Part shown: positions 852 through 62,919 of the stretch, piece by piece
Layout of the letters: each line of letters opens with the position of its first letter
Numbering within the stretch: the first letter of the stretch is position 1
Assembly: GCA_017506865.1 (NCBI GenBank)
Contig: JAFCMP010000113.1
Location: forward strand, 1,054,001-1,118,000
Source: Tribonema minus
Taxonomy: Eukaryota; Sar; Xanthophyceae; Tribonematales; Tribonemataceae
Length of the DNA: 64,000 bases
Direction of reading: 5' to 3'
Notes under the pieces: generated by a model
The model's database searches: none
What the model saw: the letters and a program-made list of their open reading frames with translations, nothing else
What the model was told of the DNA's origin: nothing
Position numbers and translations under genes: made by a program

Positions 852-1037
852 CTTCTTCTTCTCCAGCTCCGCGGACATGACTTCAACTTGCTGCCGCGCC
901 TGCTCGAGCTTGGTGAGGCCGTTGCCGAGCTTGCTGCAGGACTCGCTGAGCGACCCGCGCCTCTCCTCGAGCACTGACTTGTAGCCCTTGACCAGCTCTA
1001 GGTAGTTGGTGGGCGTCACGTAGTTGTGGCGCTTGAG
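852..1037 (-). other. Start of dynein stalk (coiled coil 1), exon 33
   Basis: Encodes [16 protein letters not shown] followed by a heptad-like helix rich in Leu, Glu and Lys that ends at a donor AAG|GTGACA (852/851). This is the junction between AAA4 and the antiparallel stalk that carries the microtubule-binding domain. No further dynein exon is seen between 851 and 1, so the remaining part of about 1,100 residues should lie to the left. Confidence 0.88.
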
Positions 1038-4000
1038 CTGTGGAGCGGTGAGTGCAGAAGGCACAAGCAGGATGTATGTGTCAACTCTGAGGCGTCGCGC
1101 GGTTGTGGCGCATAAGCTCTTCAGCATCAAATGCAGAAGGCACAAGCAGAACATGAGTGTCAACACTGAGGCGTCATGTAGTTGTGGCGCTTGAGCTGTC
1201 AAGCGGAGAGTGCAGAATGGCGCAAAGAAGATGTTGCATCCAAGTCTGTAGGGAGTGTTGTCAGTGTTGCGGAAAAAGAAAAAAAAGCAGTGCACCTGAC
1301 TCACAGAGTATGGTGGCTCACAATACATGCACATGAACAGGTACATATGTGTACTTCTGCTGAAGTAAGTGTCTGCAATGGCGTGCAGCGCGGAAACAAG
1401 GATTGAGGCTCTTCAATTTGTTTTGTGGTGAGCTCAGGACAACAAATTGTAGGGTATGAACTTGCAGCGCTTGGCGAGGAAGCGCAGCCGTGATGTGTAC
1501 CTTGCACCGGCATGCGGCCATACGCATGTATGCAAGGCATGTGCATGTATCACACATACCCCACGTCGTTCAGCATCAGCAGCTACTCCTGCGCACATGG
1601 CTTGACAAAAACGGTGATTTTCGCGCATGGCACGGGTCCACACAAAGCAAAAATCAAACTCTTAGACCTGCACCTACGGCAGTAGTGGTCCATGCGCACA
1701 CAGCATAACTCTTTCATCGGTGAGGGTTAGGGTAAGGGGGTCAAAGTTAGGGTTGGAATCAGTGCTAGGGCGTAGCACCGCCTCGGCCACAGCAGTGACA
1801 CTGCTCAGCAAGTGACAAAGTCGAGCACACCGAGCTGCTCAAATACAGTATTGTACACAACAGCAGGGCCCAGCCCCTACTAGAAGACAACAACAACGCA
1901 CCTCCTCCTGCATGCGCGCGCTCGCGTCGATGACGCTCGTGTGCATGTCGCTGAAGATGCCGGCGATCTTGGGCCGTGACCCCGCATCGTCCAGTTTGAC
2001 ATCGCTCAGGAACTTGTTGGCTACCTCCACGAGGGCGTCTGCGGGCCACTGCTGGAACCAGTCGATGGTCGTGCAGGAGACGAGGGCGGGGTACATGCGC
2101 ATGCGGTTGCGCAGCGCGTCGCCGATGGGCGACATGGCCAGGATGAGGTGGACGTTGTCGCGGACCCTGCGGTAGTTAGGGTTAGGGTTGGGTTAGAATA
2201 AGCTTGAGGATAGGGGCCAGGGTTAGGATTAGGGGATACTATTAGGGTAAGGCGGTTGCGCAGCGCGTCGCCGATGAGGGGACATGGCCAGGATCAGGTG
2301 GACATTGTCGCGGACCCTGCGAGAGTTCGAGTCAGGGTTGGGGCCAGTATTAGGGTTAGGTTAGGGTCAGCGTTAGGGGATTAAGGTTAGTATCAGGGTC
2401 AGGGGATTAGGGTTGGGCAGTCGCGCAGCGGGGGACATAGCCAGGATGAGGTGGACGTTGTCACGGACCCTGTGAGAGTTAGGGTTGGGGATAGGGTTAG
2501 GGTTAGGTCATGATGGTTAGAAGACAAAGCGGGCAGGCGGTGAATGCAAGAGCCAGGATAATGTTGAAAAATTTGGGGCAATAGGGGGGTGCGGGTAAAG
2601 GCGCTGCGTGGCTGGCAAGAAAGCGCAGCTGCTCCACAATGGTACATTGCCGAGTCATCGGCGATGGCTAGGCAGAGGTGCGCATTGGACATGCAGTACT
2701 ACTTTGCTACGTACTCTCTACGAACAAGCGCCACAGGCTGACCCCGTCTCATCCATGCCCGCAGCCTTAGCGGCCTTGCACACCCATCATACCTACATAC
2801 CCTATCAAGGTCACAATGTCTACATACCTGTCAACGACGAAGCGCCACAGACATCTCCCCCGTCTACACCAAAACGTACATACCCCATCAAGGCACAAAT
2901 GCATACCCCATATGCATACCTGTCAACGAAGAAGCGCCACAGGCTCTCGCCCGTCTCCTCCACGCCCGCCGCCTTCGCAGCCTTGCGCACACCGTCGAGA
3001 ACGGCAGGCAGCTCGTCGCGCGCGTACAGCCCCGGCACCTCGCCGCTCTGCAGCAGATTGTTAATGTCCTCCAGAAACCCCTCCTCCTTGATCTGGTTGT
3101 CGCTGAAGAGGAAGGCCACGGAGCGCCCCTCCACGCCCGCCTTTTCAAACAGCCTCTTGAGGTCTTCGCGGAACTCAATCTGGCGATAGCCCTTGGCGAT
3201 CTCTATGGAGAAGAGGTCGTGGCCGGCGATGTACGCCGCGAGGCGCGTGAGGCTCTGTCGGCCGCTGCCGCCGACGCCGACCAGCATCATGGAGCCGCGG
3301 CGCAGGCACAGGACGCGGTGGATGCGCGCGATGTGCAGGACGGCGTCGCGGAACAGGACCAGCGGCATGCTCACCAGCTTGGGCTCCATGTTGTAGTCCT
3401 GGCAGGGTAGGGTTGAGGTCAAAATTAGGGTTAGGGTTAGGGTTACGGTCAAGGTTAGGCGCAAACGCGTAGGATGAGACATTGCAGCGTCGCGGAGGAG
3501 AACCAGCGGCATGCCCACCAGCTTGGGCTCCATGTTGTAGTCCTGGCGGGGGAGGGGGAGGGTTGGGGTTCGGGTTCATGCTAGGGTTGCTTGGGTTTAT
3601 GTTGTAGTCCTGGCGGGATAGGGTTAGGGTCAGGGTTAGGGTTAGTACTAGGGTTGCTTGGGCTCCATGTTGTTCAGGGTTAGGGTTAGGCGCATACAGG
3701 CGAGAGCGGTGATGTGCGGTGCGTCGCGGGATGGGTACAACCGTGCTGAGCTGCGTTGCTGGTCCATTTTCTGAAACCTTGGTGTGCAAACTATGACGCT
3801 GATTGTTACTTAGGCAAGGTGACAACAGGCAACCGGTGTGCTGGCTGTGGCTGGGACATTGCTGATTGGCGTGTGCATGGAGTGCTGAGCACTGCTGGAA
3901 TACCTGCAACAGCCGTAACAGCAACAAACAGTTCACAGTTCATACCACTTTATGACGATCATGGTTGTTCGTGATGCTTCGCTGCGGCACAACCTTTTCA

Positions 4001-7000
4001 CGTGAATGCATCCCTGCACAAAAATCATGCAATCTACCTTCACACCACGACTGCGAAACTAGTTTCCAAATGCTCAGTCTGACTGCCTTTGCGCCAAGAC
4101 AGCAAGGCTTGTATCGGGTCCATGCCGTGTCTGTTCACTCACCTCAAGTCTCTCTTCAAGTGCAAACTTGAGCTTGGACACCCCCGCCACCTCAGCAATC
4201 ACCGGCTCCTCCCCCGCTGTGGTGAGCACTGCTGTGAACAGGGTACCCAGGTTCTCGTCTTCACACCCATTGAAGAGTGTAGACCAATCTGTGTCAAAGG
4301 CGGCTTTGAGCTGGTCGCGCAGTATTGCCTGGAATAAGGGTTAGGGGTAGGGTTAGGGTGAGGGCTAGGGGTAGTGGGGGATGGCGTGAATTTGTCGCGG
4401 TGCTGTTGCGCATCCGTGTGCTGCAGGGCGCTGCATACTGCGAGACATGACGAGTCCAACTTTGTCGATGCATGTTACTTTGTTCATGACGTATGCTGTG
4501 TTGATACTTCACGTCATTTATTCATAAGCAACGTGGTGCGAGGGGGTTTGGCTTAGGGGAGTTTGTGCTCAGCAGCATGCCGCTCGTTGCATACAAAGCA
4601 TCATGTGCATTTCACATAGCTGGATGCACGCACGCGATTGGTAGTTGTCAACCAGTATGGACGTATGGAACAGTTGCCAATCACGCTTCCGCAAGATTTG
4701 CAACTTGCGGTTTGAGCATGCACTCAGTGCACAGGAGCACACCTTGTGTTTGATACTGAGTCGTTATTATATGCGACGCGAGCGCGTCTACGGATTGTAC
4801 ACTTCAAGTTTATGAATTTCAACATTGAACTTCACCTTGAACCGCGCGTCGTCATTCGACGCGTCCGCCACGAAGCGGTCGCTGAACACGCGCTGCACCT
4901 CGTAACACGCGCTGCGCCTCATGCGCCAACAGGCACGCGAGCGCGTCGCGCAAGTCCACAACTGTACGTATGTACACTTCAAGTTCATGAAAGTCAACAT
5001 TGAATGACGACGCGTCGGCCACGAAGCGGTCGCTGAACACGCGCTGCGCCTCGTGCGCCCACAGGCGTGCGAGCGCGTTGCGCGAGTCCACTACGCATGT
5101 ACACTTCAAGTTCACAAACTTCAACATGGAACTTCACCTTGAACCGCGCGTCGTCGTTGGACGCGTCCGCCACGAAGCGGTCGCTGAACACGCGCTGCGC
5201 CTCGTGCGCCCACAGGCGCGCGAGCGCGTCACGCGAGTCCACCGCCTGCGGCCCCGCCTGCAGCACGCCCTCCACCACTTTACCCACGTCGCGCAGGCTG
5301 AAGAGGTAGTGCCCCTTGCGCGGCGTTGGCAGGAACGCCTCGCACGCGGCCTGGTAGACGCGCAAGCACGCCGCGGCGACGCGCGCGCCCAGCGGCCGCA
5401 CCTCGTTGTCAAAGTCGCACAGGCGCGCCGAGAGGATGGCGTCGAAGATGCGGATCGCCTGCGTGTGCGTGGGGGGGAAGTTGAAGTCGCGCGGCGATGT
5501 TGATATCCAATGATTGGGGACCAGGCGTAGAATGGGTACTTTTTGCAAGCCCCCGGGGGAAGTTGGCAGTATGCCAAATCACACCTCGTGCTGACAGGCA
5601 GCCAACGAGTGTTAGGCACAGCTGCAGTAGAGGCGATAGCTGGTGGGCACAGTTGAAAGGTGAACTGTTGGTGATTGGCAAACTCGCAAAGTCGCACCGC
5701 GAGGATGGCGTCAAAGATGCCGATGACCTGTGCTAGTTAAATGAGCCGGGCAAAGTGAATCCAGAACGCGACGGAGGACCCTCAACTTCAACTCAAAGTA
5801 TTCGAGTCCTCAAATGCGCCATAGTAGAGAGCAGCATCTGCCACGCCCACCTGAGCATCACTGGGGAAGGTGAGGTTGAGGAGGTTGAAGCGCGACTGGG
5901 TGCGCGCGCTGATGGCTGCGCGTGCCCCCCCCGGTGGCGCCATGGCGCACACCAGCTGCGTGTCCAGGATCCAGCGCCACGTGCACTTGGCACGGTCGAA
6001 CCAGCCCCCTGGGGGAAAGCAAAAGTTGAGCAAAGAGGGGGAACGGGGGGGGGGGGGGGGGGTCAGGGGCAGGGAGCCTTTACCTTGGAACAGAGACAGT
6101 GAAGATGGTTGTGTCACCGGCAATCTGTACACAGGGTTGACTGTAAGGCTGTTGATATGTACGTGAGTGATAACAATGGGTATGCTACGCATAAAGGAGG
6201 TGGTGTTTGCATCTGTGCGTTCACGTATGCACGCAGCGGGGGGGGGCTCCCCGGAAAAGCAAGCCATGACAATTGGCCATGGCATGCGCATGTGTACATA
6301 GCCCTGCTGATCGCTGAGGTAGATGGCCTAGTGAGCATCTCAACCTCTGCATTTGACAAGGCACGCAGGTCATTGTGACGGGCCACGCAGGGGGCACTCC
6401 CTTCCACAGAAACGCGGGGGGCGGGGGATAAAGAGGTGCTCTTCACGGCACGCGCATTGCTTTTACTCAGAGCTGCAGCGGCGCATCTCAGCAGAGCTGA
6501 GCACTGCCACCGCGACAGCGCTCACCGTGGTCCATCCAGAAGCGCAGCAGCTCCAGCGGCGGCTGGAAGGGGCTCTCGTGGCTCGTGCGCAGCGGCATGT
6601 TGAAGTCGTCGATGAAGCACAGCAGCTGCTTGCCGCCGATGGGCCCAAACTTCTCCTTGCTGCGCTTCTCCATGGCGGCCTCGATGGTCGCCTGCGTTGT
6701 GCCGGAGTCCGTGGTCGCGCTGCGGCAGCGCTCGACAACAGCAGGTGGCACCACACTCAGCAGCAGCTCTCAGCAGCAGCGGCAATCGGGAGCAGCGTAA
6801 AGCGGCACCGCTCAGCAGCAGCAGCAAGCACAGCGGCGCTCCACAGCAGCCATCAGCAGCGCTCGGCAGCAGCCGTCGGCAGTGGCAATTGGCAGCGCTC
6901 AGCAGCAGCGCGCTCAGCAGCAGCCATCAGCAGTGCTCAGCACCAGCATTCAGCAGCGCTCAGCAGCAGCAGCAGCAGCACTCAACAGCAGCAAGCAGCA

Positions 7001-10000
7001 GCGCTCAGTGAAAACAGCATTCAGCAGCGCTCAGCAGCAGCAATCAGCAGCGCTCAACAGCAGCGCTCAGCAGCAGCAGCAGCAGTCAGCAGCGCTCAGC
7101 GCCGCCACCGCCGCACCTGAAGTTGATGGCGAGCTGCGCGTGCGTGGGCGGCAGGTGCGCCAGCTCCGCGCGTGCGAGCGCCGTCTTGCCGCAGCCGCTC
7201 GCGCCGACCAGCAGCGCGTGGCGGCGCCCGCGCCACAGCGCGCGCAGGACGTAGCCGCTGCGCGCCGTGTCTACCGTGGGCACGACCATGGCGTGGAAGG
7301 GCATGCCCTTGCGGTGGCGGAAGGCGCCCACGCGCGCCTCCCACGGCTCCCAGTCCTTCTTGGCGGGGTCCACGGCGTAGTCGTAGATGGTCGCCACGGG
7401 CGGGAACTGTGCCTCGATGTCGCGCAGGAAGCCATCCAGGAGGATGCGGCCCTGGCGGCGGCGCGGTTATGAGAGGGTTGAGGGTGGGGTTAGGGTTTGC
7501 ACATCTGCGCAGGTATTATTTGCCCATGTCAAAAGTGATTGGCACTGTGTCAGTTTGTGGAGCGGCACTCTCTTCTCTTGCAGAGCGCGTAATGTTGCTA
7601 ATCTGGGCGATTTGGGCCTTTGGGGACACATGATGAAAGATGCTTGAGCGGCGCGCAGCGCTTGAGGAGTTGCGGTGTCAGGCATATCTGTTGTACCTCA
7701 AACTTTCACCCTACCCCTACCCCTCACCGTAACCCCCTTACCCCTCATCCCCTTCTTGAACCTGACATCATGTCACAGTTTGGCTCGCAGCACCAGGCAG
7801 AATGATGCCGCCATGTCGTTGTGCACCACACATCTGAGCAAAGTGCGTGTACGCGCCCTGATTCCTACCCTACCTCATGCTATATCGACAGGAACAGTCA
7901 CTTCATTCACGCAGCGTGGTTACAAGCCCGAGGTAGGCTAGAGCTAGGGTTGGGGGTAGGGCTGGGGACAGCCTCCGCATTCACCGCCATGCCAATGGAC
8001 CAGAGCAGTCGCCCGCGAGCGTTGCATCGGTCACAGCACAGCAGCACTAGAAGTAGGATTTAGGTTGGGGTTAAAGTTACGGCGCGCCTCACCTTCTCGT
8101 TCACCGCCGCGCAGGTGGACCAGATGACAGCTAAAACGAACCACTTCTCGGCGAGGCTGAGGTACGCGCTGTGGTCGCCTGCGAGCGCCGCGCCAATCAC
8201 AATATAGGACTAGGGCCAGGGCTAGGGTTAGGTTTAGCGCTATAGACTTAGGGTTGGAGACAGCGCGCCTCACCTTCTCGTTCACCGCCGCGCAGATGGA
8301 CCAGATGACGGCGAGCACAAACCACTTCTCGGCGAGACTCAGGTACGCGTTGTGGTCACCAGCGAGCGCCGCGCCGGCGGGCGTGCCCTTGTCGAGCGCG
8401 CTGTCTGCATCTGCCCAGAAGCTGCTGTACAGCGCGCAGAGGCTCTGGACAGCGTTGAAGTCGCCGATGGGCACAGGCTCCGCGCAGTTGGCGCGCTTGA
8501 AGTCGAGCAGCGGCGCGACGTACTTGTCAAAGAGCTCGTGGTGGAACGCGCGCAGCTCCTCCTCGCCCTGGCGCCGCAGAGGGATACATACATGCACGGA
8601 TGGTGAGTGTACTGTAAGTGTGCTCACATGTATGCTAGGCCTACCAGCTTGTCTTCTGCTGCGGCCGCGTGCCTGTCCTTGCTGGTCGATGCCATGCAAG
8701 GAGCGATGCACACGCTGCTGCATCTCCCAGACTCTTCGCAAAAACTTGACACTCTTCAAGGCCTGTGCCCGGTACAGAGATATATAGTCCATGCACTTCT
8801 GTTGAAGTGTGTGCACACCGACAATGCGTGAGTGGTCATGAGCACGTGATTGCAGTGCAGATGATTGTTGGCAAAACGGTCATGAGGTCAAGCTTGTTGG
8901 TTTTTTATATGAACACAGGCGTGCGTCGCGGGCCTTTTAAGTTGAGGCGTGCATCAGGCAACTTCAACTACTCAAATTGAAAAGTGGGAGTGAGGCGTTG
9001 CATGTTGAAGAAATCACGAACCCTGAACCCTAAAAATGGCCGTAAGGCAAAGCCTGTGCGCCTTCACCTCACCCTGCGGCAGCCAACAATACTTGCATGA
9101 TGAGCATTGAGGTATGCCCTGTTGCGCAAGGAGGCGAAGGTTAGAAGCATCGGGCACAGCCTACATGTATCTAGGATGCGTCAAGTCGGTCAATGGGCTT
9201 TGATGCTCCTTGACCAATGTGGTGGCAGGCGTGCAGCTCCTCTTCCTGTCAGGCATCAGGCGTACCAGATGGCACAGTAGCTCGTTGCTGGTAGCCCGCA
9301 GCCTGACCCTCGACCCATCGTTACCACTACCTTGCACACCAGACCTAAACTTCAAGTACAACGTGAGCGCTGCCGAGCACCTGCCGCACCACTAACAACC
9401 ATGTGCCTGATTGTACGCGCCCTTACGACCCCTGTTCCTAACCCTCCATTTATCAAGCCCCCCGCTATCTCACACTAACCGCGACACAGAGCACGGCACT
9501 GGCGCGCGCGCGCTCCCCTCGGATTAACTCGTGGGAAGCCTCGAGTTGACGCATATGCGCCCTTCATAAGCCCCCCCGTAACCCAGTCCCTACCCCTAAA
9601 GCCCGCCCCATGCCTCGTGGACCCCCCAGCTTCCTCACCCTAACCTCAACTCACAAGGTAGAGCACTGACGCGCGCTCACCTCCGGGAACTTCTTGAGCG
9701 GCCACGAGTTGACGTTACGGCTGCCTATGCGCTTGCCAACCCTCACCCTCCTCCTAACCCTAACCCTGACCCTGAGCCTCAATCTCTTAAACCCCGGCTT
9801 CCTCGCCCCAACCTCAACTCACGAGGTAGAGCACTGACGCGCGCTCACCTCGGGGAACTTCTTGAGCAGCCACGAGTTGACGTACGGCTGCCAGCCCATC
9901 TCGTCCGCATCCACAAATATCATGCCCGCGCGCGACACCGTGGCGGGCGACGCCACCGCCAGATCCTCAACTTCAAACACGAGCGACATGGTCGCGGTGA

Positions 10001-13000
10001 GCGGTATGCGGTCGCCGTTGATGAGCGTGAGGATCTTGTTGTCGTCCATGACGGAGTTCATGGACTCTATCCACAGGGCGTCGACCGGGCCGTCGAACAC
10101 GATCCACTTCTCCACGGGCTTGGCGTCCTCCGCGCAGGACTTGAAGATGGTGGAGAGGATGCCGTCGGACCACTCAAACGTCGCGAGGTCGTACGCGCCG
10201 TAGAGCTCATTGAGCGTGATGGACTTGGGGTTGATGACGTAGGGGGTGACGGGGAGGTGGCCCTCGACGCCGTCCTGCGCGCGCGCGCAGTCAACACGCG
10301 AGGGGGGGTATGCAGCGTGAATACATGCGCGCACTAAGTACATACCGTATATGATGCATGCGCGCTTTCAGCACGGGAGGGGTATGTAGCATGAATTAGT
10401 GCGTATCACATACCGTATGCACGCGTGTGTCGTACAGCTTGGTCACTGCGCTTGGTTGACTTGGGATACATATATGACGCCAGGGGTGATGGGGAGGTGT
10501 TCTTGCACGGTGTCCTGCGCAGCCGTTATGCAAACTGGGGGTATGTATTACTAGCAGAGGTGCTCTAGATTGGTGCTGCATAGCACACCGTGGCATCTGA
10601 GATTCCGTCGTTGTGCTGCTGGTGGCTTCTTTGTGCGATTAAACAGCACACTGCATGCACATGTGAATACTCTGTGCATCTCGGCGTCAGAGTGAGGGTC
10701 ACGGGCCGTAACAATGCTTCAAAGTATACACATGGTTTCGGCAAACGCAAGTAGATCATATGTGTATTGAGGCCGCGACTCCTCTGCACTGGCACAAAAC
10801 ACGTCATGTTGACCACTGCGCCACGAGCTGCCGAGTGCACACTAGCCCTAGCCTTTTTCCTAACCCTAAGAGAATCTGTAAGGGTGAGCGCCCTGACACA
10901 GGGTAAGGTTCAGGACAAGCATATAAATGACAAGCATGACATGGCACATACCTTGTGATCGCCAATATGCATCGAGGCACTTTCAAGGTGCTCTTAAGAA
11001 AGATGCAGATTCTGGTAGCAAGCCGCACATCCACCGTCTGAATTTTTGTCACGCCCCCCAAGCGAGAGTTCTAATACCTACATACCTTGTGCAGCTGCGC
11101 CTTGGCGTTGACGAGCGTCTGCCACGCGACCGTCTTGCCGGACAGCGTCCGCCCCACCAGCATGTTGCAGTGGCGCGTGGCCTTGCTGTCGTAGAGCTGG
11201 ATTATCTTCATGCACAGGAACGGGTGCTTCTCGAGGCCGTGCGCCGCCAGGTCCGCCTGAGCAACGCCACCAGGCACGGGGTCAGCACAGTCGAATGAGT
11301 CAGTGTATTGTTGACTAATAGTGTAGCTTGTCACTGAAGTACCGGAGAAGGCACTGTGCTGTCACAAAATGATGCAGTACAAAGTGCTCAGCCCCGTCGT
11401 TTGTAATTATCACCAGGCACGAGTTGGCACAGTCAGACGAGACGGTGTACTAGGTGAATTCATAGATCTAATGTGCCTGGAAAGGCCATGTGGTTTTGCG
11501 CAATGATGCAGTGCAATGCGCTCAGCCCTATCTCCATACAGCACCTCAAGCTTTGCATTGGTGTTTCCCATTCTTGAGCCCCTCTTTAAAGTACCCTCAC
11601 CACCTGAGATGGTGTAAAGACACCTGTTCGTTGAACTGTTGTAACTGTCGTAAGCGCAGCGCCAAGCCGTGCACCTGTTCTGTCAGAGCAAGATCATCAT
11701 CAGCGCACAGACATCCGCATTCGCCTTGCCGCACGCCACAATGGTTGAGCGTGGTGGCATGCCCACCGAGCGCTGACATACACATGCGCTGCTGCTGGCG
11801 TTACTGCCGTGGTCAGCATCAGTGCCCAACAGCAGCGCTCATCCTTGGTGCTCAATGCGCACGTGCACGCCACGACCATGCCCAACTCAAATCTCCACTG
11901 CAGGCAACACCCCATAGAGTGCCAGTGCCCCCCATCCCCGCCACAGCTGTCGGTGCTGCCGGACCTCAGTGCTCAACGCCTGTGTCAATACTCAACCCCA
12001 GTGCTCGGCGCACACGCCGACGTACCTCAATGGCCAGCTGCAGTGCGCCCATCTCCCCGGCGGGCAGCTCGAGCGACGGGAACAGGTCCGAGAGCAGCAG
12101 CCGGAACAGGCGCTCGTCGTCGCGGATGAACTTGGGCAGGTTCATGTCGCGCAGCGCGCGCATGAGGATCGCCTCCTCGTTCATGGCGGGGTCCGCGCGC
12201 TTGAGCGCGCCGGCCATGTTGAGCACTGACTTGAGGTTGCGCAGGCCGTAGTCGTAGTGGTCCTGCTTGGACAGCTGCTGCGCCATGAGGGAGTAGAGGG
12301 TGACGGTCTTTCTTGCGAGCGCGCGCGCCTCGCGGAACCCCTCCGCCGCGAGCATGACCTCCGCGATCATGGCCAGGTCGGGGGTCATCATCGCGACGGG
12401 GCGCATGAGGGCCTGCGGGGGGTGGGTAGGAGTGGGGGGTTTGGATTAGGGTTAGAGGAGAATTCGGGGGGTATGTGTAGTGCTGATTGGCGCTAGGGTG
12501 GGACCAGGTCGGGGGGTCATCGTCTCGACGAGGCGCATGAGGGAGTGTGTGGGTGGAGCACTGGGGGGATCGTGCAGGACTGATGTCAGGGTCAGTGGCT
12601 GAGATAGGATCTGTGGTGAGCAGGATTGTTCCAAATCATGTGCGCATGTGGGCCAAGCGACCCGTGCAGCAGACGCAACACCAACCTTGGGCGTGCGCTT
12701 TGCGCCATCGCGTGCCATTGAGCACCGCTCAAGCTCAAGTCTCAGTTCAGGTGTAACTTCATGCAAAAAATCTGAAAACTTAACTCGCCTTGAGGCTGTC
12801 GAGCAGCTCCGTGCGTGCGGCCCCGTTCCCCGGGTTCATGGTCACAAAGGTGCAAGTTGAAGATTTAACTTCAAGTACTTCGTATGAAACTTCAAGACTC
12901 GCCTTGAGGTTGTCGGGCAGCTCTGTGCGGCCCGCGTACCCGGGGTTCATGGTGACAAAGATGCCCGTCGCGGGGTGGCAGCGGATGGTGTTGCCCATGA

Positions 13001-24433: not shown

Positions 24434-24476
<43 letters not shown>

Positions 24477-51490: not shown

Positions 51491-54400
51491 CGCAGGACGC
51501 CGTCGCCGCCAGCGCCAGCAGCGCCGCCTCCGAAGGCGGCCGCCGCCGCGCCTCCGCCGGCGCGCTGATGCACCGCTCGCAGTGGCAGGCCGACCACGAG
51601 GCGGCGCGCTGCAGCGTGTGCGACGCGCCCTTCGCCGTGTACCGGCGCCGCCACCACTGCCGCGTGTGCGGCCTCGTGTGCTGCGCGTCCTGCTCCACCA
51701 GCAAGGTGCGCGGGGCGCGCTGCTGCGACGCGTGCCGCCAGGAGCTGCTGCGCGGCCGCCGCGGCAGCGGCGGCGGCGGCACTGTCGCCGCCTCGCTGCG
51801 CGATGACAGCAGCAGCGTGGACGGGGGACTGGACGCGCGCGGCGGGCCCAAAGCGCTTACGGAGGAGTCAGAGGTGGTGGAGGCGCTGAAACAGCATGTT
51901 TTGGACCTGGAGCACAAGATGAAGGTCATGGACAGGGAGGTGCACTACGCGCGCGCGCGCGCGCTGCTGCGGCGCCTCAACGTCGCGCACGCGCTGCTCA
52001 TCGGCGTGCTGACGCTGACGTATTTTGCGCTCGCGCACCTGCTCGCGGCGGCCGTGCACGCTTACGTGTCGCCGACCCTCGGCAGCGTGCCGCTGCCGCT
52101 CTGGGCGGCAGCAGCGGCGACGGCGCCCCTCGCAGCGGCGGTGGCGCCGCCGGCGGCGGCAGCGCTGGCGGCGGCGGAGTGCGCGGCGGCGCCTACGCTG
52201 GCGGCTGCGGCGGCTGTCGCGGCGGTGGCGCAGCGCACGTGCACGATCGGCAACTGCTCCGAGCACCCAGCATGCGGCGGCGCTGTTCACGAGGCTGCCG
52301 CCAACAGCAGCGACGGCTATTATGGGGCGCTGGACGATGACGTGTCAACGCTCAGCAGCGGCGGCGGCAGCACAGCCGCTGCTGCCGCTGCCGCTGCGGT
52401 GCTCGACATACCTACCTACTGGGCGCTGATGCTGGTGGCAGCGCTCGCGCTCGCCGCGCACCAGGCGCTCACGCACCTGAGCTTCCAGCGGCGCGTGCGC
52501 ACGTTCATGGTGGCGAGCACCATTGTGTTCTCGCTGCGCGCGACGCGGCGCCGCACGCAGGGGATAAGCGCTGCTGAGAGCGACGAGGCGTGGGAGTCTG
52601 CGCACAAGCTGCTGGCGCCGTTCCTGTACTGGAGCATCCTGCGGCTCAAGGGACTCTGGGTCAAGGTGCGATTGGTAGCTGCCGGTATGAATGTATCATG
52701 TATGTATTGCCCTCATCGTTTCTCTGTTGCAGTGACATGAAGCAACAAGAGCCATACGTTTACATTCTGTATGCGACAAAGATGTGGTAAGCATCGCAGC
52801 TTCAATACGGGTCTCGGCTGCTATTTCAGGGCTCTAGACCACTGAAGTGCTTGCAGGGTTTTGACACTGATGTTGTGTTCGCTACAGGGCATGGTACAGG
52901 CCCTCGACGCTCTACAAAGCATCTCCAGTAATGTACCCTTTACCGCTGGGTGAGATGGCTCCTGTATCGCCGTCAGCGCTCAGCACGGGCCACATCTTGG
53001 TCATGTTCAGGCTCAGCATCGCAGCCAAATAGGGGGCTGCACTTTGTCTTATGCCAAGCCTGGCATCGCGCTGCACTCCCTGCCCGATAGGCTGCCGTAC
53101 AGCAATCCGTTCACGCTCACAGCATTCCATTCACGCTCACCGCGCTGACCACGCCCTTGAACTTCGCGCGCAGGCGTGCGCTCCTCCTCTGCAGACGCAA
53201 GGCGGTTAAGGTTATGAGCGGTGACGCGTACGCGCAGCATTTGCCAGAATGTGTACACACATACTTCAACTTGAAGTTGCAAACAGCCTCACGCTGCGCC
53301 GCGCATGCCCCCGTCTGCCCCATGCTCCACCTCCGCAGTTCGGGCAGTTCGCGTCATCGCGCGGCGACGTCATGCCGCAGGCCTTCATCGACGAGCTATC
53401 CAAACTTCAAGACTCCGTCCCCGCGTCCCCCTGGCGTGAGATCCGCAAGACCATCGAGTCAGCGCTCGGCGCGCGCGTGGAGGACGCCTTTGGGTCGGTC
53501 AGTGAGAAGGCGCTGGCGAGCGCGAGCGTCGCGCAAGTTCACAGGGGGACGCTCCACGATGGGACGGCGATCGTGGTGAAGGCGCAGCACGCGGACGTGC
53601 AGCGGCTGATGCTCAGCGACCTGAGCGACATCATGACCATCGCGCGCCTCGTCGCGTGGGCGGACCCGCAGTACAACTTCAAGCCCATCTGCGAGGAGTG
53701 GACGCGTGAGGTGAGACATTGGGTTAGGGTTAGGGTCAAAGAGGATTGAGATTAGGGTTACAGTTGGGCTGGTGGGCGGGACCTGCAGTACAACTTCAAG
53801 CCCATCTGCGAGGAGTGGACGCGCGAGGTGAGGCAGAACTAGGGTTAGGGCTAGGGCAAGGGCTAGAGCTGGGGCTAGGGTTAGGTTTCAGATCACGGAT
53901 GAGGGTTGACTTGGCGCCTTGCTATGTGGTGGATCCAAAGTACACAATCAAGCCCATGTGCAAGGAGTGGACGCGCAAAGTGCACCATAGGGTTAGGGTG
54001 AGGCTAAGAGAGATTTGTCAGAATGTTTTGGGTCAGGGTTGCGGGCAGACACACTACAATTTGAAACCCCTTTTGCGAGGGGTGGACGTGAGAGGCGGGA
54101 TGTGAGGAGCGAGGCAACGGGCCAGGGCTAGGGGTAGGGTTGGAACTTAGCGAGCCAACCTGATCCTTGGTTCAAGGTCAAAGTTGAGATGCAGGGCAGC
54201 CAAGTTTTAGTTTAGGGTGAGAGTTGGTTTCCAGCGGCGGCTGGCCTTCGCTCTGACTCACATCAAGGCTGTCAGTGTGACATTGTTGAATTTGCGCGCT
54301 TGCAAGGTCAGCAAGGGGCCCTTGGAGTTTCTCGCATCTTGGGATTCGTTCATGGCGCGCGCCACGGGCACGAAATCAAAGTTCAACTCCAATCACATCA

Positions 54401-57400
54401 CCTTTTGTTTCTTTTAAACCTAGCGGGTAGTTACAGCACCCTGAGAGGCGCTCAATGTAGCGGCACATGCAGTAGAGGCGCAGAGGATCCACAGATCAGT
54501 CAAGAGTGTGGAGATGGGGACTAGTTGAAGGGTCAGGGTCAGCTGGCCATATTGTCGACCTGCGTCAACACACGCTGGCACTCACCACCTTAACCTCTCA
54601 CTTGCTCTACAGCACCACCCCCTCACTCCACCACTCACTTGGCAAGCTGGAGCTGAACTTCAACTTATTCTGCTTTGAAACACGCATTCCCCGCGACGCA
54701 ACAGCTGGACGTCTGCTGTCCCCAGCGTCAACACCCTTAAGCACGCTTTCCACTCTCCGCCTCACTCACTTACTCACTCACTCACTTGCACCACCACCCA
54801 CTCACCCGCTCCGCAGGTGCGCAAGGAGCTGGACTTCAACTTTGAAGCCGACAACCTCGTCTGCCTGCGGCGCGCCATGGCCGACAGCGGCCTCGACGTC
54901 AAGATTCCCGAGCTCGTGCCGCAGTTCACGCGGCGCTCGCTGCTCGTCATGCGCTTCTGCCCCGGCTTCAAGGTCACCGACACGACGGCGATGGAGCGCG
55001 CCAGCCTCGACCGGCTCGCCATCATGGAGGCCGTGTGCAGGAGTTTTGCGTACCAGGTGCACATCCTGGGGCGGTTCAACGGTGACCCGCACCCCGGTAC
55101 GTGCTGCTGCTGCCGCAACCCTTGCACTAGGGTTGGCGTAGCGATTATGCCCTAGGGTTAGGGTTCATGTCGTTCGGGTAAGGTTGTGTCAGGTTTAATG
55201 GCGACCCGCACCCCGGTACGTGCTGCTGCCGCCGCAACCCTTGCACTGGGGTTGGCGTGTGGCGATTATGCCCTCGGGTTAGGGTTTAGGTCATGCTCAG
55301 TCAAGGGTTGGTTCGTGTCAGATTCAATGGTGACCCGCATCCCGGTACGTGCTGCTGCAGCCGTAACCCTTTCACTAGGGTTACTCCCGCCGCCCTTGCA
55401 CTAAGTGGGGTTAGTTTTTGTAGTGGTTATACCCTAGGGTAAAGGTTCAGGTCATGCTCATTTAAGGGTAGGGTGTGTCAGTTGCAACGGGGACCCGCAC
55501 CCTGGTACGTGTGTCCCGCGCTGCAACCCTTGCACTAGAGTTACTGTTGCCGCCCTTGCACTAGGGTTACTGTTGCCGCCCTTGCACTAGGGTCAGCTAG
55601 TAGCGGTTGTGCCCTAAAGTTAGGGTCAAGGCCGTTCTTTTGCTCTATATAACTTTTCAGAAGAAAAATCCAAGCAAGGTCAGGGTCAGGTTGTGTCAGG
55701 TTCAACGGTGACCCGCCCGCCGCCGGCACCCTGCCCTAGGGTGTAGTTGATGCATTTGTGGTATTATTAGGTTGCGTCAGGGTCAACGGTGACCTGCTGT
55801 ATGTGCCGCCACCGCCGTTGCACTAGGGTTAGCGTCTTATGGTCATGCCCTAGGGTAGGTAAGGCTAGGTTATGCGAGGTGCACGGTTCACCGGCCACCT
55901 GCGCCTCGCCTAACCCTAACCCTCAGTTTAACCTAACCCTTCGCACCGGGCATGTGTGCCGCGGCTGCCTTCGTCTCAGCATCATAAGGTCTAGGTAATG
56001 GTGAGGGTCAGGTTAGGGTTAGGGTTAGGGTTAGGGTGAGGGCCAGGGCCCCTATTTTGATTGCTGATGTGTCTGGACTTCGGCCCAAGGTTTTGATACC
56101 GCGTCCTCACCCTTGTGTTTAGACTCCCGTGTAGGATGAAATGCCTGTGTATGTCACCTCAGTGTATCGTTGCTCCTCGATCTTGCAGGCAACATTTAAA
56201 GTAATTGAGACGTTTGTGAGGGTCCTCACCGTCCTATATGAAAAACGAATCAAAAAGATCGTTGAGCTCTAGGTGACAAGGGATGGTTAGCTGCAAGTGC
56301 CTTCCACCGATAACCGTGGTCGCCGCTGCTGCAGTCATTGGCCACGAGTCAAACAGTGCCACCATAACCACAGTAGGCAAAAAGACTTCTGTGTGCAAGC
56401 TTTTAAGCGTTCGAGGCATGGGTGTTCAGTATGGACAGGTCTCACGTGTTCGGTAGGCCAGCTCCAGCCGGCAGCCCAACACAGAGGTTCAGCAGCTAGT
56501 GACAGCGCTCTTGAATGCGCGTAGTGCAGAGGTGATGGGCGGGTTTTGAACCAATCCATGCGGCGACATTGAGGCTCCAGGTTGTTTAGTACGAGCTATC
56601 CGTAGCTATATATGTAACCTCAGTGCGCCGCTGTCCTAGTACCTCGCAGGCAACATTCTCATCGAGACTTTCACTGATGAAGCCGGCTGCCCCAGCGCTC
56701 GCCCCGTGCTGCTCGACTGGGGCCTCGCCAAGCAGCTGCCGGAGCACCTTCGCCTCGCGTTCAGCAAGTTTGTGTACGCGGCCAGCGAGATGGACGTCGT
56801 CAACATGCTGGAGAGCCTCGACGACATGGGCATGGTGCTCAACAGGTGACGCCCCAACTGTAACCCTCATCCCGCAGCCCTAGTTCAACCTTGACATGGA
56901 ATCTCCAACATATAACTCCTTGTAGGATTGTAGCGGGGGCATGGTACTCAGCAGGTGGGACGAACAGGTCAGTGAATCAATCTGACTGTCTTTGGTGAAT
57001 CTGACAAGTAGTTCAAGTTCAAGATGAACTTTCCCAACCCGCATGCATTCTAACATAGAATTCCTCATTTGAACAGGGTTATGGGACTCAACAGGTGTGG
57101 TGAGCCAGTCGCGCTTCCTTCGGCACGCAGACAGATGCTTGCGGTCTTTCTCTGACTCCAATGCCAAGCAATCCCAAGCACCTGGACTTTCAACTGGAAA
57201 CCGCAGCGCAGCCTGAACAGTCACTTGCGATATGGCGGAAGCTGCAGGATTCGTGTCATCATGCAAGAAGGTCACTGTGTGAGTATCACATCTGCGGTAC
57301 TTGTAAATCATCAGTTCATTCAACCCTGACGCCAGATCTGAACTTACCTTGTCACGATCACCATTAATATACCGGCACTGTCTGGAGCCTGACCTTATCA

Positions 57401-60400
57401 TATTACCATGATTGTTTTACCATCACCGTCACTGTTACTGTATCATTATTACCATCATCATTGTTATGACCGCCACCACTGGTATTGTCTGGATTTTGAC
57501 CACTAATGCTTGCCGGCGTTGCGATGGGTGTCATCTGACATGGTGTTTGCAGATTTGACCCCATGGAGGACATGACCAACATCAGGTATGTACATAGAGT
57601 ATGCATATGTGAGAGTGTACCTTTACTTAAATCTTGAACAATTGTGCAGCCTGGTGTGGCTCGCTTTGCCACAAGTCATGGCTTGCAGTTCGCTTGCGGC
57701 TTGCAGTGCCCAGTCGTGCGCACTGAACGGTGAACTGTGCTCTGTGTACTGCACCCTGTTACCTCGAAATGTTTGTTTGTCGAATACGGATGTACATGGC
57801 CCTCAGAGCGAGAGTGCAGCATTGCCTTGCGTTCCTATTCCAACTGCAGTATGCATGTCGCTGCACACACAGCTGCCCGCCCGAGAGATGCTGGTTATGA
57901 GCATCCTGCTGACGTGGTGGCATCGCTGGACAGGCTCTTCCCTCGTTTTAAAGTTAAGCTGTTGCTACTTGATGTTGAAGTGCCATGGCGCATCGCTTGA
58001 GGTTAAATTGCCGCCCAAACAGAGCGTGGCGCAGGCAGACCGACCCCTCGTGACGACCCCCCCCCCCCCCCCCTTCCCCCCTTGTGTACCCCTTCTCGTC
58101 AGGTTCATGATGCGCGACACGGCTCCACCAGACGAAGCCAAGGCCGAGACGCAGGTCTTCAAGAAGGTCATGATCAAGCGCTACCAGGCCGGCAAGCGCA
58201 ACCCCATGGAGGCGTACCCGGGCGACCTCCTCTTCTTCATGCGCGTCACGCAGCTGCTGCACGGCCTGGGCTCGCGCCTACACGTCCGCGGTGAGCTGCG
58301 CGTGTGACTCTCCGCTTCTGCTGTTTGTGGCAGCGCTCAATTGCTTCGTGGCTGCGCGTCAGAGGTAGCTGTAGATGCTGCACGGCCTGGGCTCGCGCCT
58401 ATACGTCCGCGGTGAGCCAGCTGCATGTGACTCTCCCTTGTATTTGGATGATGGTGGCAGCGCTCGTTGCTCTGTGGCTGCGCGTCAGAGGCGGATGTAG
58501 TCGCCGCAGCTCCTGGTGATGCTGGAACAACAGAAGTAGTAGTAGTGGTGCAACGAAGAGAGCTGCTGCACGGCCTATGCTCACGCCTCCACGTCCGCGG
58601 TGAGCTGCACGTGTGATCCTCTTCTGCTGATGATTGGTGGCAGCGCTCATTGCGTGCATTCGTTGCCTAACCCTAACCCTAACCCTAACCGCATTCGTTG
58701 CGGCCTGCGGAGAAGAGGTAGATGTAGCGTTGCGGCAGCTCCTGGTTAATGGGGTGGCAGCGCTCAATCTCTTTGCAGGCTGCAAGTGAGATGTGGATGT
58801 AGTGCCGCGGCGCCCCCCTGCTATGCTGGGCAGCAGAGGTAGTAGGATTGGTGCAACGCAGAGAGCTGCTGGGCAACAGAGGTACTATTACATGAGTACT
58901 CACCACGATCGCTTGCAAGTTTGCTGTAATGTAAGGGCTGGCGTTTGGCGCTGCTTCATGTTCAGGTGACGCACTATGCACATGCAGCAGACACCGCAGC
59001 TTTGCGTCAGCAGTAAACCAGGGCTAGGGCTATGCACTGTCACCACAGCTAGGGCTTGGCACCATTTCATGTTTGGGCGATGCACAAATAAAAACACACA
59101 AGTTGCTACCACTTGCACAAAGTTGCCGCTTGCGCCACGTTGACCCCCCCCCCCCTCCCCCCTGATACTGCCCCTAACGCTGCTTGCAGCCAAGTATATG
59201 GACTTCATGGCGCCGGAGGCGCAGCGCGCGCTGCGTGAGTCGGTGCCGCGCGCTGCCTGGGCCTCAGCGCTCATCTACGCCTCCCCCGCGCTGTCCCCCC
59301 TGGAGACCAAGGTCCGAGCGCTGCTGCGCGCGCTGCACGACGAGGGCGAGCTCAACGGCTGCCAGGTGACTGTATTTCGCATGCATGCAAAGAGGAAGTT
59401 TAGGGTCAGGCTTGGCTGCCTCGAGACGCCTTGAAGCACCGCACCGCTCACTAGTGGCCCGCCTTAATGGGCCCAGGCTCTGTGCTGGCCGGATTTCCAT
59501 GTGCTGCTGCGCATGCCTGATGTCACCAGTGTTTTGCCGTCTCGGTGAAAAATAATTATCAATGATCACCTATGAATCATCATGTTTGAAATACTTAACA
59601 GCAAAGGTTATGATGACATGATTAATGATCACAAGCATTCCTCGCGGCTCCGCCAGGTGTGTGTCTTCCGCCACGGCGCGTGCCTCGTGGACACAAGCGC
59701 GGGCGCGCATACATGATTAAACTATTCATACTTTCTAAATAAATTCAATACTCCGCAGCGAACATTATAATACAAGTAATCAATGATACTTTCGTAATAA
59801 TGATTCTTCGCGTTCCCCCCAGGTGTGCGTGTTCCGCCACGGCGCGTGCCTCGTGGACACGTGCGCGGGCGCGCAGGGCCCCATCGTAACACCTGAACTA
59901 CAGTAGAACTAATTTGCTGACCAAACTTCAAAATAATGTTGAACTATAAAGCAAATTTCATGATGACATTAGTAATGACTGTAAATATTCTCCCGCCCCC
60001 CCCCAGGTGTGCGTCTTCCGCCACGGCGCGTGCCTCGTGGACACGTGCGCCGGCGCGCAGGGCCCCATTGACCCGCGCCCCGTCACCCCCGACACCCTCT
60101 TCCCCGCCTTCAGCGTCACCAAGGTCGTCGCCGCCGCGGCGCTGCACGCGCTCATCGACCGCGGCGCGGCAGCGCTCGACACGCCGCTCGCGTCGTTCTG
60201 GCCGGCGTTCGCGAAACGCGGCAAGGGCGCGACGACGCTGCGCCACGTGCTGACGCACGCGACGGGCCTGCAGCACGCGCTGCCGCGCGACGCGAACCTG
60301 CGCGTGCTGTGCGACTGGCGCGCGGTGCTCGCGGCGCTGGAGGACGCGGCCCCCGTTTGGCCGCCGGGCACGCGCAGCGCGTACCACTACTTCAACTTTG

Positions 60401-62919
60401 GCTTCCTCGCCGGCGCGTGCGTGGAGAAGCTCAGGTGAGGTGACAGCTTTTCTTTCGACATCATGTTGCCTTTGCAATGTTGCCTTTGCATCGCTGGGTG
60501 AGATGGCCGTCATTTTTTACCGTGGGTCAGCAGCGGGCTTGCGGTTGGCGTCGAGGGTCAGGATCGCTATGAGGTAGAACTGCTGCGGTACGTACAACAC
60601 CATATGTCTGGCATTGCGCTAATGCTGTGTGCCGTGTAGCACCCGTTGTTGTGTGTGCCGAGAGCGTCCACATTGCCCAGGGACTGCCATCGTCAGGTGC
60701 ACGTGTCAAAGTCTGCACCCTCACGAGAATGTTGTGCACTGACATCAACTTCAACTTCAACATCCTCTGCAGAAGCCTGACGTTACTGCAACCGCATCAC
60801 TGACTATCAGCAGGCGTCACTGTTCACACCACTCTCCATTGACCACATCCATGCTGCGCCTCCTCCGCGCATCACAGCGGCATGCCCTTCGGCGAGTTTG
60901 TGCGCACCGAGATTGCCGCGCCGCTCGGCCTCTCTGCGCACATGTTCATTGGCGGCGTCGCGGCGGCGGGCGTGCCGCGCTCGCGCATCGCCGCCGTCGA
61001 AATGGCCGCGTTCAAAGAGGCGTTCGGCAGCGCGGACCAGGGGGAAATTGGAGATGTGATGAGGGAAGAGGAGGAGGCAGAGGAGGAGGAAGGGGCAGAG
61101 GGGGGTGCGGAGGGGGGTGTTAGGGCCGGCAAAGGGGGCGGCAGGGGGTTCCTTCACCTGATGGCGGAGGCTATCAAGGAGGAGGACCCTCAGGAGGGGG
61201 CTGCGCTGGAGGAACTGGCGGATAAGCTGCGGCGGCGAGAGTACCTGTTGGACCCGAGGTGAGGTGGTGGCAGCGCTCCGCTGGTGCAGCGCGCTTGGCA
61301 GCAGTGGTTATTGTACTGTAGCAGCTGTTGGGGTTACCGTGCTGTGTCACGTGGTGTGCTGTTGCCGCGGCGCACTGCTGCTTAGCAATGTGGCTTCCGC
61401 AAGGGGCGGGGGGGGGTTACCTGCGACTTGCGACTGCTGTGAAGTCGGGCTCAACAAGTACTGACGGTAGGGCACGATTCGCTCAGAGAAACGTTCTTGG
61501 CACTGGCTGTACGCACAGCTTTTTGTTGTGGCAGCGCTCACCATGTGTCACACCGCCATGGCCCTGCAGCCCAACGGCGCTGCTCAGCAAGGCCCAGAAC
61601 CAGGGCACCCCTGTGGACGGGGGGCAGTGCTCAGGTGGCAGCGCTGCAGCAGTGCAGCAGCGCTCCAGCGTCTGGTGGTGGTGCGGCAGTACATGAGTGT
61701 TTTCTGTGGCTACTACGCTCACGCACCAGGTGTCCCCCAGGTATGCCCCCTCCCTGCCCCTCGTCAGGCCCCCTGTAGTAGGGGGGTATATAGAGGTGGA
61801 TTCCCAGGGGCGATGCAGCATTGCTGCGCACGGTCGCACTGCTGATATTCACAAGCAGGGTGCCTTCACGCGTGTCATTGCGCTCGTGTCCCCTGCCTTC
61901 GCTCAGCGCGCACTGCTCAAACGCATATGCAGCAGCGCTCGCAAAACACCCTCACGGCAGCGCTCAACACCCCCACAGCACCGCTCAACACCCTTCGCTG
62001 CTCCACCGCCGCCGCGCGCGCGCGCGTCCTGCCCTCCCAGGATCTTCAATAGCAAGGACGTGCAGGAGGCGTGCATTCCGTCCGCCAACGGCCTCTTCAC
62101 GGCGCGTGCGCTCGCGACGCTCCACAACGACTTCCTACTCTCCCTCGGCGCCGTCGACGCCGCTGCTGCCGCTTCCGATACTTCCGCCTCCACACCCGCG
62201 GCAGCAAATGGAGGACGCCATGCGCATTCCGCCGGCGGCGGCGCAGCGTTTGCAGGCGTGAACGGGACAGCGGCGGCGGCGGCGCAGCGCGGCGGACTGC
62301 TGTCGCGTGAGCGCGTGGAAGAGTTTAGGTCGTACGCGGCGAGCGACTCGAGCGCGATGCACCGGCTGTTTGGCCTGCGCAACCGCATGCGCTACGGCCT
62401 CGGCTGCCAGCTGTTCGGGTTCAAGGAGGAGGGGCCGGAGGGGGCGCGCAGGACACGGCTCAGCGGCTTTGGGTGAGCACACCAACTTCACACTTGAAGT
62501 TTGCATGGAACTGTGTACCCATCGAGCGTGAAGTTTGGCATGGGGTCACGGCATCCTCGCGCGTGACCAAGAGGCTCAAAGGGTGGAGCGCACCGCAACA
62601 CTCAAAATTTCAAGATGAATTTTCGGATTGGTAATCTATCTGGGCATGTAGTACAACTTCGCGCTCTCGTACTCACTCACTTACTCACTCCTTTACTGAC
62701 TCACACACTCACTCGGCCGCGCCGCTCTCACACACCCCCTGCGCCAGGCACGTGGGCGTCGGCGGCAGCGCGGCCCTCTGCGACCCCGCCACCGGCGTTA
62801 GTTTCGCCATGACGGTCAACCGCATCCGCCCGGGGCGGCGCGCGACGACGCAGGTGTTTGAGCTAGTCTGCAAGGAGCTGGGCATGGGGGAGCCTGTGCC
62901 GCTGTTTGCCAACTCGTAG
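50851..62919 (+). CDS. SCP2-FYVE-transmembrane-ABC1 kinase-beta-lactamase fusion protein
   Basis: Twelve exons: 50851-51028, 51326-52665, 53339-53710, 54817-55096, 56650-56845, 57553-57585, 58103-58290, 59190-59365, 60007-60434, 60878-61258, 62041-62472, 62748-62919. All phases agree; 4,176 bases, 1,391 residues. Order: SCP2-like domain (about 1-115), FYVE finger (about 145-200), coiled coil (240-274), hydrophobic segments (about 275-300 and 427-448), ABC1/ADCK kinase (about 470-850) and a class C-like beta-lactamase fold (about 900-1391). The kinase-hydrolase half corresponds to plant At5g24810-type proteins, down to WADPQYNFKPI, KELDFNFEADN and IPSANG. The SCP2-FYVE half is not part of that plant protein. 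It is likely a membrane-anchored, lipid-linked enzyme; its substrate is unknown. Acceptor choice for exon 2 (51326 or 51340) matters; only 51326 keeps phase with the exon 1 donor. Confidence 0.85.
51580..51760 (+). other. FYVE zinc finger
   Basis: All signatures are present: WQAD (the WxxD motif), paired cysteines CSVC, the basic RRRHHCRVCG patch that binds phosphatidylinositol 3-phosphate, then CCASC and the closing GARCCDAC. It should direct the protein to PI3P-rich endosomal or autophagic membranes. It lies in the same uninterrupted exon as the start of the ABC1 domain, so the fusion does not depend on splice prediction. Confidence 0.9.
51960..52520 (+). other. Hydrophobic and Ala-rich membrane region
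   Basis: A 25-30 residue apolar segment (ALLIGVLTLTYFALAHLLAA) follows a basic coiled coil. An Ala-rich stretch with a small Cys-containing loop follows, then a second apolar segment (YWALMLVAALALAAHQAL). Two membrane spans would put kinase and FYVE on the same side. Part of the Ala tract is GCG/GCC repeat expansion. Confidence 0.6.
53780..54090 (+). repeat. Donor-side echoes of exon 3 (3 copies)
   Basis: TACAACTTCAAGCCCATCTG and the rest of the donor edge recur at about 53786-53832, 53940-53985 (decayed) and 54052-54090 (more decayed), each near TTAGGG-like runs. Confidence 0.85.
55180..55920 (+). repeat. Ladder of about six donor-side echoes of exon 4
   Basis: The real edge GACCCGCACCCCG|GTACGT (donor after 55096) recurs near 55202, 55332, 55492, then as weaker copies near 55708, 55790 and 55885. 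The first two keep CACCCCGGTACGT or CATCCCGGTACGT, and the third keeps the GTACGT donor. Confidence 0.88.
56145..56220 (+). repeat. Acceptor-side echo of exon 5
   Basis: Contains TTGCAGGCAACATT and ATTGAGACGTTT, matching the acceptor and first codons of exon 5 (GCAGGCAACATTCTCATCGA at 56646). It lies about 470 bases upstream. Confidence 0.75.
58368..58612 (+). repeat. Donor-side echoes of exon 7 (2 copies)
   Basis: CTGCACGGCCTGGGCTCGCG with the donor CCGCGGTGAGC recurs at 58375-58416 and, with substitutions, at 58562-58605; the real edge is 58255-58296. Confidence 0.85.
59190..62919 (+). other. Serine beta-lactamase-like (class C fold) domain
   Basis: Exon 9 has the nucleophile motif SVTK (Ser about 957, Lys about 960) after PVTPDTLFPAF, then LTHATGLQ and YHYFNFG (a Y-x-N motif). 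Exon 10 opens GMPFGEF. Exon 11 has IPSANGLFTARALA. The last exon has GHVGVGGSAALCDP, the H-x-G third motif. The triad is complete, so hydrolase or esterase activity is possible; eukaryotic members are not antibiotic resistance enzymes. Exon 10 carries a Glu-rich insert near 61065-61130 and exon 11 an Ala/Gly-rich insert. Confidence 0.87.
59650..59885 (+). repeat. Two acceptor-side echoes of exon 9 resembling cassette exons
   Basis: GCCAGGTGTGTGTCTTCCGC (from 59655) and the equivalent GTGTGCGTGTTCCGCCACGG copy (from 59822) repeat the acceptor and first 55-65 bases of exon 9 (60007) almost exactly. The second copy runs into GGCCCCATC|GTAACA, a weak donor-like site. Confidence 0.85.

Follow-up and report, generated by a model that had tools for sequence, protein, structure and literature searches.

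Genes of the window and their echo arrays

We analysed a window of 64,000 nucleotides (nt) from the alga Tribonema minus (contig JAFCMP010000113.1, positions 1,054,001 to 1,118,000), in an assembly of 158 Mb and 554 contigs (GCA_017506865.1). Among the genes of the window are a DNAH2-type axonemal dynein heavy chain, NOL10/ENP2 and a FYVE-domain protein; exons of the ABC1-kinase and beta-lactamase families were read as one gene. Many introns in the window contain copies of the edge of the adjoining exon, together with its splice site and some intron, repeated head to tail on the same strand. These own-exon echo arrays, described in an initial annotation of the window, proved to be real, and the copies were specific to their own exon as that annotation had claimed.

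Exons were called by a gene finder based on codon periodicity, which was trained first on the window alone and afterwards on it together with 20 other loci of 10 kilobases (kb) each. These loci lie on four contigs, one of them the window's own, and their gene models were less complete than those of the window. When the window was compared with itself, 95 same-strand pairs of repeats separated by under 3 kb were obtained. Arrays were defined by filtering self-repeat pairs to shifts of 40-400 nt and then grouping them. Of 45 window arrays, 42 crossed the edge of a called exon, one of the 42 (29423-29701) being doubtful. All entries below rest on self-repeat grouping, most also on a match of the exon edge to its own intron, and donor-side entries mostly also on a display of stacked units.

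1012..1234, minus: acceptor-side echo array, exon 852-1037; self-repeat, edge match
2103..2508, minus: acceptor-side array, exon 1902-2166; self-repeat, edge match
2714..2990, minus: donor-side array, exon 2920-3398; self-repeat, edge match, stacked rows
3343..3690, minus: acceptor-side array, exon 2920-3398; self-repeat, edge match
4788..5242, minus: donor-side array, exon 5138-5458, ~105 exon bases per unit; self-repeat, edge match, stacked rows
5406..5730, minus: acceptor-side array, exon 5138-5458; self-repeat, edge match
8079..8375, minus: donor-side array, exon 8269-8567; self-repeat, edge match, stacked rows
9624..9892, minus: donor-side array, exon 9849-10274, copy 1 93% identical; self-repeat, edge match, stacked rows
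12373..12568, minus: acceptor-side array, exon 12026-12412; self-repeat, edge match
12783..12964, minus: donor-side array (GC donor), exon 12903-13376; self-repeat, edge match, stacked rows
13332..13519, minus: acceptor-side array, exon 12903-13376; self-repeat, edge match
13651..13909, minus: donor-side array, exon 13832-14068; self-repeat, edge match, stacked rows
14006..14364, minus: acceptor-side array, exon 13832-14068; self-repeat, edge match
14381..14987, minus: donor-side array, exon 14900-15256, four intronic copies; self-repeat, edge match, stacked rows
15228..15506, minus: acceptor-side array, exon 14900-15256; self-repeat, edge match
15886..16183, minus: acceptor-side array, exon 15719-15923; self-repeat
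16556..16915, minus: donor-side array, exon 16876-17093; self-repeat, edge match, stacked rows
17373..17800, minus: donor-side array, exon 17756-18175; self-repeat, edge match, stacked rows
18756..19394, minus: acceptor-side array, exon 18412-18805; self-repeat, edge match
19813..20002, minus: donor-side array, exon 19953-20137; self-repeat, edge match, stacked rows
20101..20415, minus: acceptor-side array, exon 19953-20137; self-repeat
20722..21076, minus: donor-side array, exon 21025-21312; self-repeat, edge match, stacked rows
21235..21449, minus: acceptor-side echo, exon 21025-21312, 95% identical over 63 nt; self-repeat, edge match
22013..22690, minus: acceptor-side array, exon 21532-22086; self-repeat, edge match
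22770..23219, minus: donor-side array, exon 23153-23777, 160-nt unit, little decayed; self-repeat, edge match, stacked rows
25329..25713, minus: acceptor-side array, exon 25205-25404; self-repeat, edge match
25859..26199, minus: donor-side array, exon 26150-26594; self-repeat, edge match, stacked rows
26993..27215, minus: donor-side array, exon 27147-27308; self-repeat
27279..27457, minus: acceptor-side array, exon 27147-27308; self-repeat
28079..28233, minus: acceptor-side array, exon 27960-28111; self-repeat
28400..28752, minus: donor-side array, exon 28720-28983; self-repeat, edge match, stacked rows
28946..29120, minus: acceptor-side array, exon 28720-28983; self-repeat, edge match
29423..29701, minus: doubtful donor-edge array, exon 29679-29831, 58-nt unit, ~22 exon bases; self-repeat, weak
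30923..31211, minus: acceptor-side array, exon 30766-30984; self-repeat, edge match
32211..32580, minus: donor-side array, exon 32536-32811; self-repeat, edge match, stacked rows
37080..37690, minus: donor-side array, exon 37607-37822, four copies; self-repeat, edge match, stacked rows
38203..38501, minus: donor-side array, exon 38445-38636; self-repeat, edge match, stacked rows
38599..39034, minus: acceptor-side array, exon 38445-38636; self-repeat, edge match
53656..54095, plus: donor-side array, exon 53339-53710 (ABC1 kinase-like exon); self-repeat, edge match, stacked rows
55073..55856, plus: donor-side array, exon 54817-55096; self-repeat, edge match, stacked rows
58252..58871, plus: donor-side array, exon 58103-58290; self-repeat, edge match, stacked rows
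59586..60068, plus: acceptor-side array, exon 60007-60434 (beta-lactamase-family exon); self-repeat, edge match

The gene finder placed the edge of exon 14900-15256 at 14904, and the junction used here is backed by the DNAH2 alignment described below. At exon 54817-55096, self-repeat grouping joined 55073-55563, and two more copies extend to about 55856. The eight places that the initial annotation had singled out were all checked, and arrays were present at each: on donor sides at 14381-14987, 22770-23219 and 55073-55563, on acceptor sides at 22013-22690, 38599-39034 and 59586-60068, and on both sides at 13332-13519 with 13651-13909 and at 19813-20002 with 20101-20415. By gene models, arrays occupied 22/30 introns in the dynein region, 4/8 in the ABC1-kinase and beta-lactamase-like gene and the one intron called at 37.6-38.6 kb. 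The earlier statement that most introns of three genes are affected therefore holds for the dynein region only.

Specificity for the own exon and for junctions

The 60-nt edges at 225 junctions of confident exons were aligned to introns cut at 1500 nt, with a Smith-Waterman score of at least 40 counted as a match. A strong same-strand match to the own intron was found at 58/225 junctions (donors 36/110, acceptors 22/115; window 35/84, other loci 23/141). Exon pieces lying 60-120 nt and 120-180 nt from the edge matched the own intron in 5/225 and 1/177 cases, respectively, and no edge matched either the reverse-complemented intron (0/225) or an intron from another locus (0/225). Sixty junctions scored at least 36; six of them, all with scores of at least 40, were later excluded because they reflect coding repeats or low-complexity sequence (L013 twice, L015, L016, L017 and window position 42579), leaving 52/225 (window 34/84, other loci 18/141). 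Separately from these echo counts, L015 shows steps of ~81 nt at 1771-2947, within and beyond the called exon, perhaps an in-frame protein repeat.

Chance similarity is ruled out by the near-zero controls. Chance and assembly artefact taken together are an extremely remote explanation: besides those controls, the copies differed from their exons by ~9-10% on average, and the contigs sampled reach 1.9 Mb.

Random placement of units, comparing junction with interior positions, predicts 22% of arrays at junctions. Uniform tandem duplication was therefore rejected in the window, where 42/45 lay at junctions; the case was less clear in the other loci. When called exons were masked, 27 window arrays were left, 24 of which belonged to junction arrays. 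Enrichment was weaker in the 20 other loci, whose 51 arrays comprised 26 at junctions, 23 in noncoding DNA and 2 inside exons. Possible uncalled exons lay beside 9/23 of these noncoding arrays compared with 44/200 control stretches, and some of the arrays may flank such exons. The excess at junctions over controls, for which the initial annotation had proposed a genome-wide test, was present in the sample of 20 loci on four contigs. Gene ends were examined as a control free of splicing; echoes were found at 0/4 ends with a stop codon, just 4/13 called ends finishing in one, too few to tell attraction of duplications by junctions from regrowth.

Anatomy of the repeat unit

Among 54 arrays with 96 copies, 25 had one copy, 22 had two and 7 had three to seven. 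The unit had a median length of 141.5 nt (quartiles 123 and 167) and measured 91-184 nt in 49/54 arrays. Its exon part had a median of 52 nt on the donor side (33 arrays) and 53 nt on the acceptor side (23 arrays), and its intron part 79 and 95 nt, respectively. In stacked donor-side rows, exon edge, splice site and intron recurred head to tail. The intron part of the nearest copy scored above all 50 shuffles in 35/52 cases. The exon boundary agreed within 3 nt in 25/56 adjacent copy pairs, against 12% after reshuffling. With boundaries thus repeated in register, an array does not call for a separate breakage for each copy.

Exact TTAGGG/CCCTAA motifs fell outside called exons at 210/215 sites, in both orientations relative to the gene (window and loci L009-L028), and telomere-like hexamers were seen inside several array spacers. 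A CAG-rich simple repeat (6725-7103) adjoins dynein exon 6526-6719.

Decay and order of the copies

Mean identity to the exon was 0.913, 0.903, 0.894 and 0.851 for copies of rank 1 to 4 (54, 29, 7 and 3 copies). When the exon was compared with copies 1 and 2, changes unique to the exon fell at codon positions 1/2/3 in the numbers 4/3/16. Changes confined to a single copy were spread evenly over codon positions in the 12 arrays that hold three or more copies (8/11/14, 7/14/8 and 18/18/16). Of the indels in copies, 3/42 were multiples of three, or 5/50 on another copy set. Because of this spread and the non-triplet indels, the copies appear to decay as noncoding DNA next to a constrained exon. 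The same data disfavour alternative coding exons.

In quartet comparisons of the exon with three copies, sites grouping the exon with copy 1, 2 or 3 numbered 13, 2 and 4, so that the nearest copy was mostly grouped with the exon. Together with the common unit boundaries, these sites favour in-register growth beside the exon. Each array might instead have been produced by a single burst of repeated template switching. Common boundaries within arrays would fit such a burst, as would the small number of changes that two copies have in common to the exclusion of the exon (7 at codon positions 1 and 2, compared with 81 unique to one copy). A burst does not, however, fit the excess of unique changes in copy 2 over copy 1 (92 vs 62) or the quartet counts, and we regard it as distinctly improbable.

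An array in one of two paralogues

The light-harvesting genes L030 (contig C79) and L031 (contig C1) have a stretch of 768 nt in common at 90% identity. L031 carries an acceptor-side array; at the same edge of L030, neither a local repeat nor an echo was found. At sites that distinguish the two exons, copy 1 of L031 sided with the L031 exon 12 times and with the paralogue 4 times, and copy 2 did so 8 times and once, respectively. The L031 array therefore formed after the split from L030. Copy 1 differs from its own exon at five sites and has the paralogue's state at four of them, each a third codon position. At these four sites it is the L031 exon that has changed, and copy 1 preserves an earlier state of the exon.

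The best solved relatives of L030 and L031 include long multi-domain light-harvesting chains (9vfj), possibly polyproteins, and the family has 92 exon-level matches in the genome. Taken together, the light-harvesting genes and the axonemal dynein indicate a photosynthetic flagellate. Solved structures gave no match for a first light-harvesting fragment, and phages none for NOL10. Two contig pairs, C70/C489 (L034/L035) and C296/C490 (L036/L037), were 99.9% and 100% identical over ~2.95 kb and are perhaps unmerged haplotypes or assembly duplicates. No allelic change in copy number was seen in these two pairs, whose 3-kb stretches contain no array.

Splice sites and the encoded protein

Splice dinucleotides were kept in most copies, with GT or GC in 53/62 donor copies and AG in 29/37 acceptor copies, and 60% of donor and 54% of acceptor copies scored at least as high as the weakest tenth of real sites at array junctions. 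The many competing splice sites proposed in the initial annotation are thus present as potential sites. GC in place of GT was found at 25/117 donors of confident exons in the window and the 20 loci (92 GT), a high share.

An 823-residue stretch translated from eight joined exons aligned to the solved DNAH2 chain 9fqr_D0 across seven junctions. No insertion was longer than a single residue, and that residue falls at the junction of 16876 with 15923. The real splice sites at these seven junctions are those on the exon bodies, and the echoes are untranslated, their splice sites apparently being ignored.

Selection could in principle retain echoes because they act as backup or decoy splice sites, or because they serve as alternative exons. 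The preserved dinucleotides and site scores would agree with this, as would a lean towards third positions among the changes in the two nearest copies. However, a divergence of 9% would by itself leave ~83% of the dinucleotides in place, few indels come in multiples of three, and where an array has three or more copies, changes found in a single copy are even over codon positions. We therefore consider such selection very unlikely.

How the introns may have grown

On balance, the arrays probably began as tandem duplications spanning splice junctions and then grew further, in register, from an exon that selection kept intact. Small tandem duplications, mostly of 90-185 nt, would span a splice junction. 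As the exon body would still be served by the outermost splice site, the additional stretch of exon edge would end up inside the intron and be tolerated. The copy would then decay as noncoding DNA while selection preserves the exon, which would make the exon a permanently fresh repeat. Slippage or unequal exchange between the exon and the youngest copy may add further in-register copies beside the exon and push older ones inward, as the boundary and quartet data indicate. The outcome would be an own-exon array with many intact-looking splice sites and a longer intron.

The proposal of the initial annotation that introns grow by repeated tandem duplication across junctions is supported to this extent by the head-to-tail own-exon units and by the presence of an array in one paralogue only. 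Its further suggestion of a graded record is less well borne out, as the gradient is weak.

Several observations weigh against duplication followed by regrowth from the exon. The rank 1 copy was closer to the exon than the rank 2 copy in only 20/29 arrays (p = 0.06); the earlier claim that copies further from the exon are usually more decayed is weakly supported by this test, and the quartet sites favour it. The 13 supporting quartet sites came from 5/12 arrays, and conflicting sites occurred in five arrays. Changes unique to the two nearest copies lean to third positions (copy 1, 20/14/28; copy 2, 27/20/45), and two copies differ less in their exon parts than in their alignable intron parts (11.6% vs 17.0%). 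The third-position lean may reflect changes in the exon between one duplication and the next, mutability or a degree of constraint; the first of these fits the lean of copy 2 but not that of copy 1. The intron part of the unit is often unalignable, 17/52 nearest copies failing the shuffle test, and with exons masked the other loci retain 13 junction arrays against 23 noncoding ones. The exon part is also narrower than the 81-nt median expected from random breakpoints (Kolmogorov-Smirnov p = 1e-10, with 110 exon bases offered), never exceeding 107 nt in retained arrays even when up to 250 exon bases were offered. A pure fresh-template model does not explain this narrow exon part.

The narrowness leaves room for a process targeted to the junction. 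The junction itself, through a positioned nucleosome, an R-loop or nicks linked to transcription or splicing, might repeatedly copy ~50 nt of exon with 80-95 nt of intron. In line with this, the narrow exon part and the unit size are alike on donor and acceptor sides, 24/27 window arrays lie at junctions when called exons are masked, and the size of a nucleosome is near the unit length. The arrays confined to noncoding DNA in other loci (23/51) do not fit such attraction, which we hold to be rather unlikely. In a bolder form, a junction-anchored process would repeatedly copy a segment of fixed size in tandem from the exon in current use; introns would then expand outward, starting at their own splice sites, and earlier exon sequences would be kept in order like fossils. 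This form is less likely than not and is put forward tentatively.

Whichever process adds the copies, the arrays lengthen existing introns. Our results suggest that introns in this alga lengthen by repeated small duplications at exon-intron boundaries; junctions might themselves attract the duplications.

Comparison with known systems

Intron lengthening has mostly been argued from transposons; in this alga, the edges of the adjoining exons appear to be the source of growth. The arrays hold copies of earlier exon states, placing a selected exon beside unselected copies, and they provide a natural test of how the spliceosome chooses among near-identical sites within a few hundred bases. No description of own-exon echoes as a genome-wide pattern was found in the literature searched at the level of titles and opening lines of abstracts, a search whose coverage excluded most subscription papers.

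Introners are known from some algae to affect introns genome-wide. They spread one sequence common to many genes, whereas each array here copies its own exon edge, with no edge matching a foreign intron. The initial annotation had distinguished the pattern from introner insertion on these grounds, and the edge test, which compared exon edges with introns, agrees. No element boundary was found at which target-site duplications or terminal repeats would lie.

Like intronic minisatellites, the arrays consist of head-to-tail units in register, within 10-200 nt, with one to seven intronic copies. Unlike minisatellites, they repeat a unit that holds a splice site and an exon edge under selection, and nearly all window arrays lie at called junctions (42/45). 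Exon-like copies within an intron next to their source also recall tandem exon duplication and mutually exclusive exons. The echoes differ from mutually exclusive exons in comprising the edge only, with one splice side per copy, in carrying frameshifting indels (3/42 multiples of three) and in showing no codon-position bias in arrays with at least three copies.

Tandem duplication is also a route to new introns. The pattern does not correspond to Rogers tandem-duplication intron gain: the upstream exon end occurred at the 3' end of 0/38 introns and the downstream exon start at the 5' end of 2/38, and in those two introns, 392 and 219 nt long, the 300-nt search extends into echoes of the acceptor side. 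None of the introns (0/38) showed the AGGT pattern that creates introns. At the seven dynein junctions no new intron was created, the echoes lying inside single introns.

The portion of Ma et al. (2016, PMC4974935) consulted here describes intron gain by tandem duplication in the potato RNA-dependent RNA polymerase (RdRp), where the upstream intron-exon structure was duplicated. In both systems, a head-to-tail duplicated segment contains exon, splice site and adjacent intron. Unlike the potato case as given there, existing introns grow here, the protein is unchanged at the seven junctions checked, and one to seven copies are present, with many introns per gene affected.

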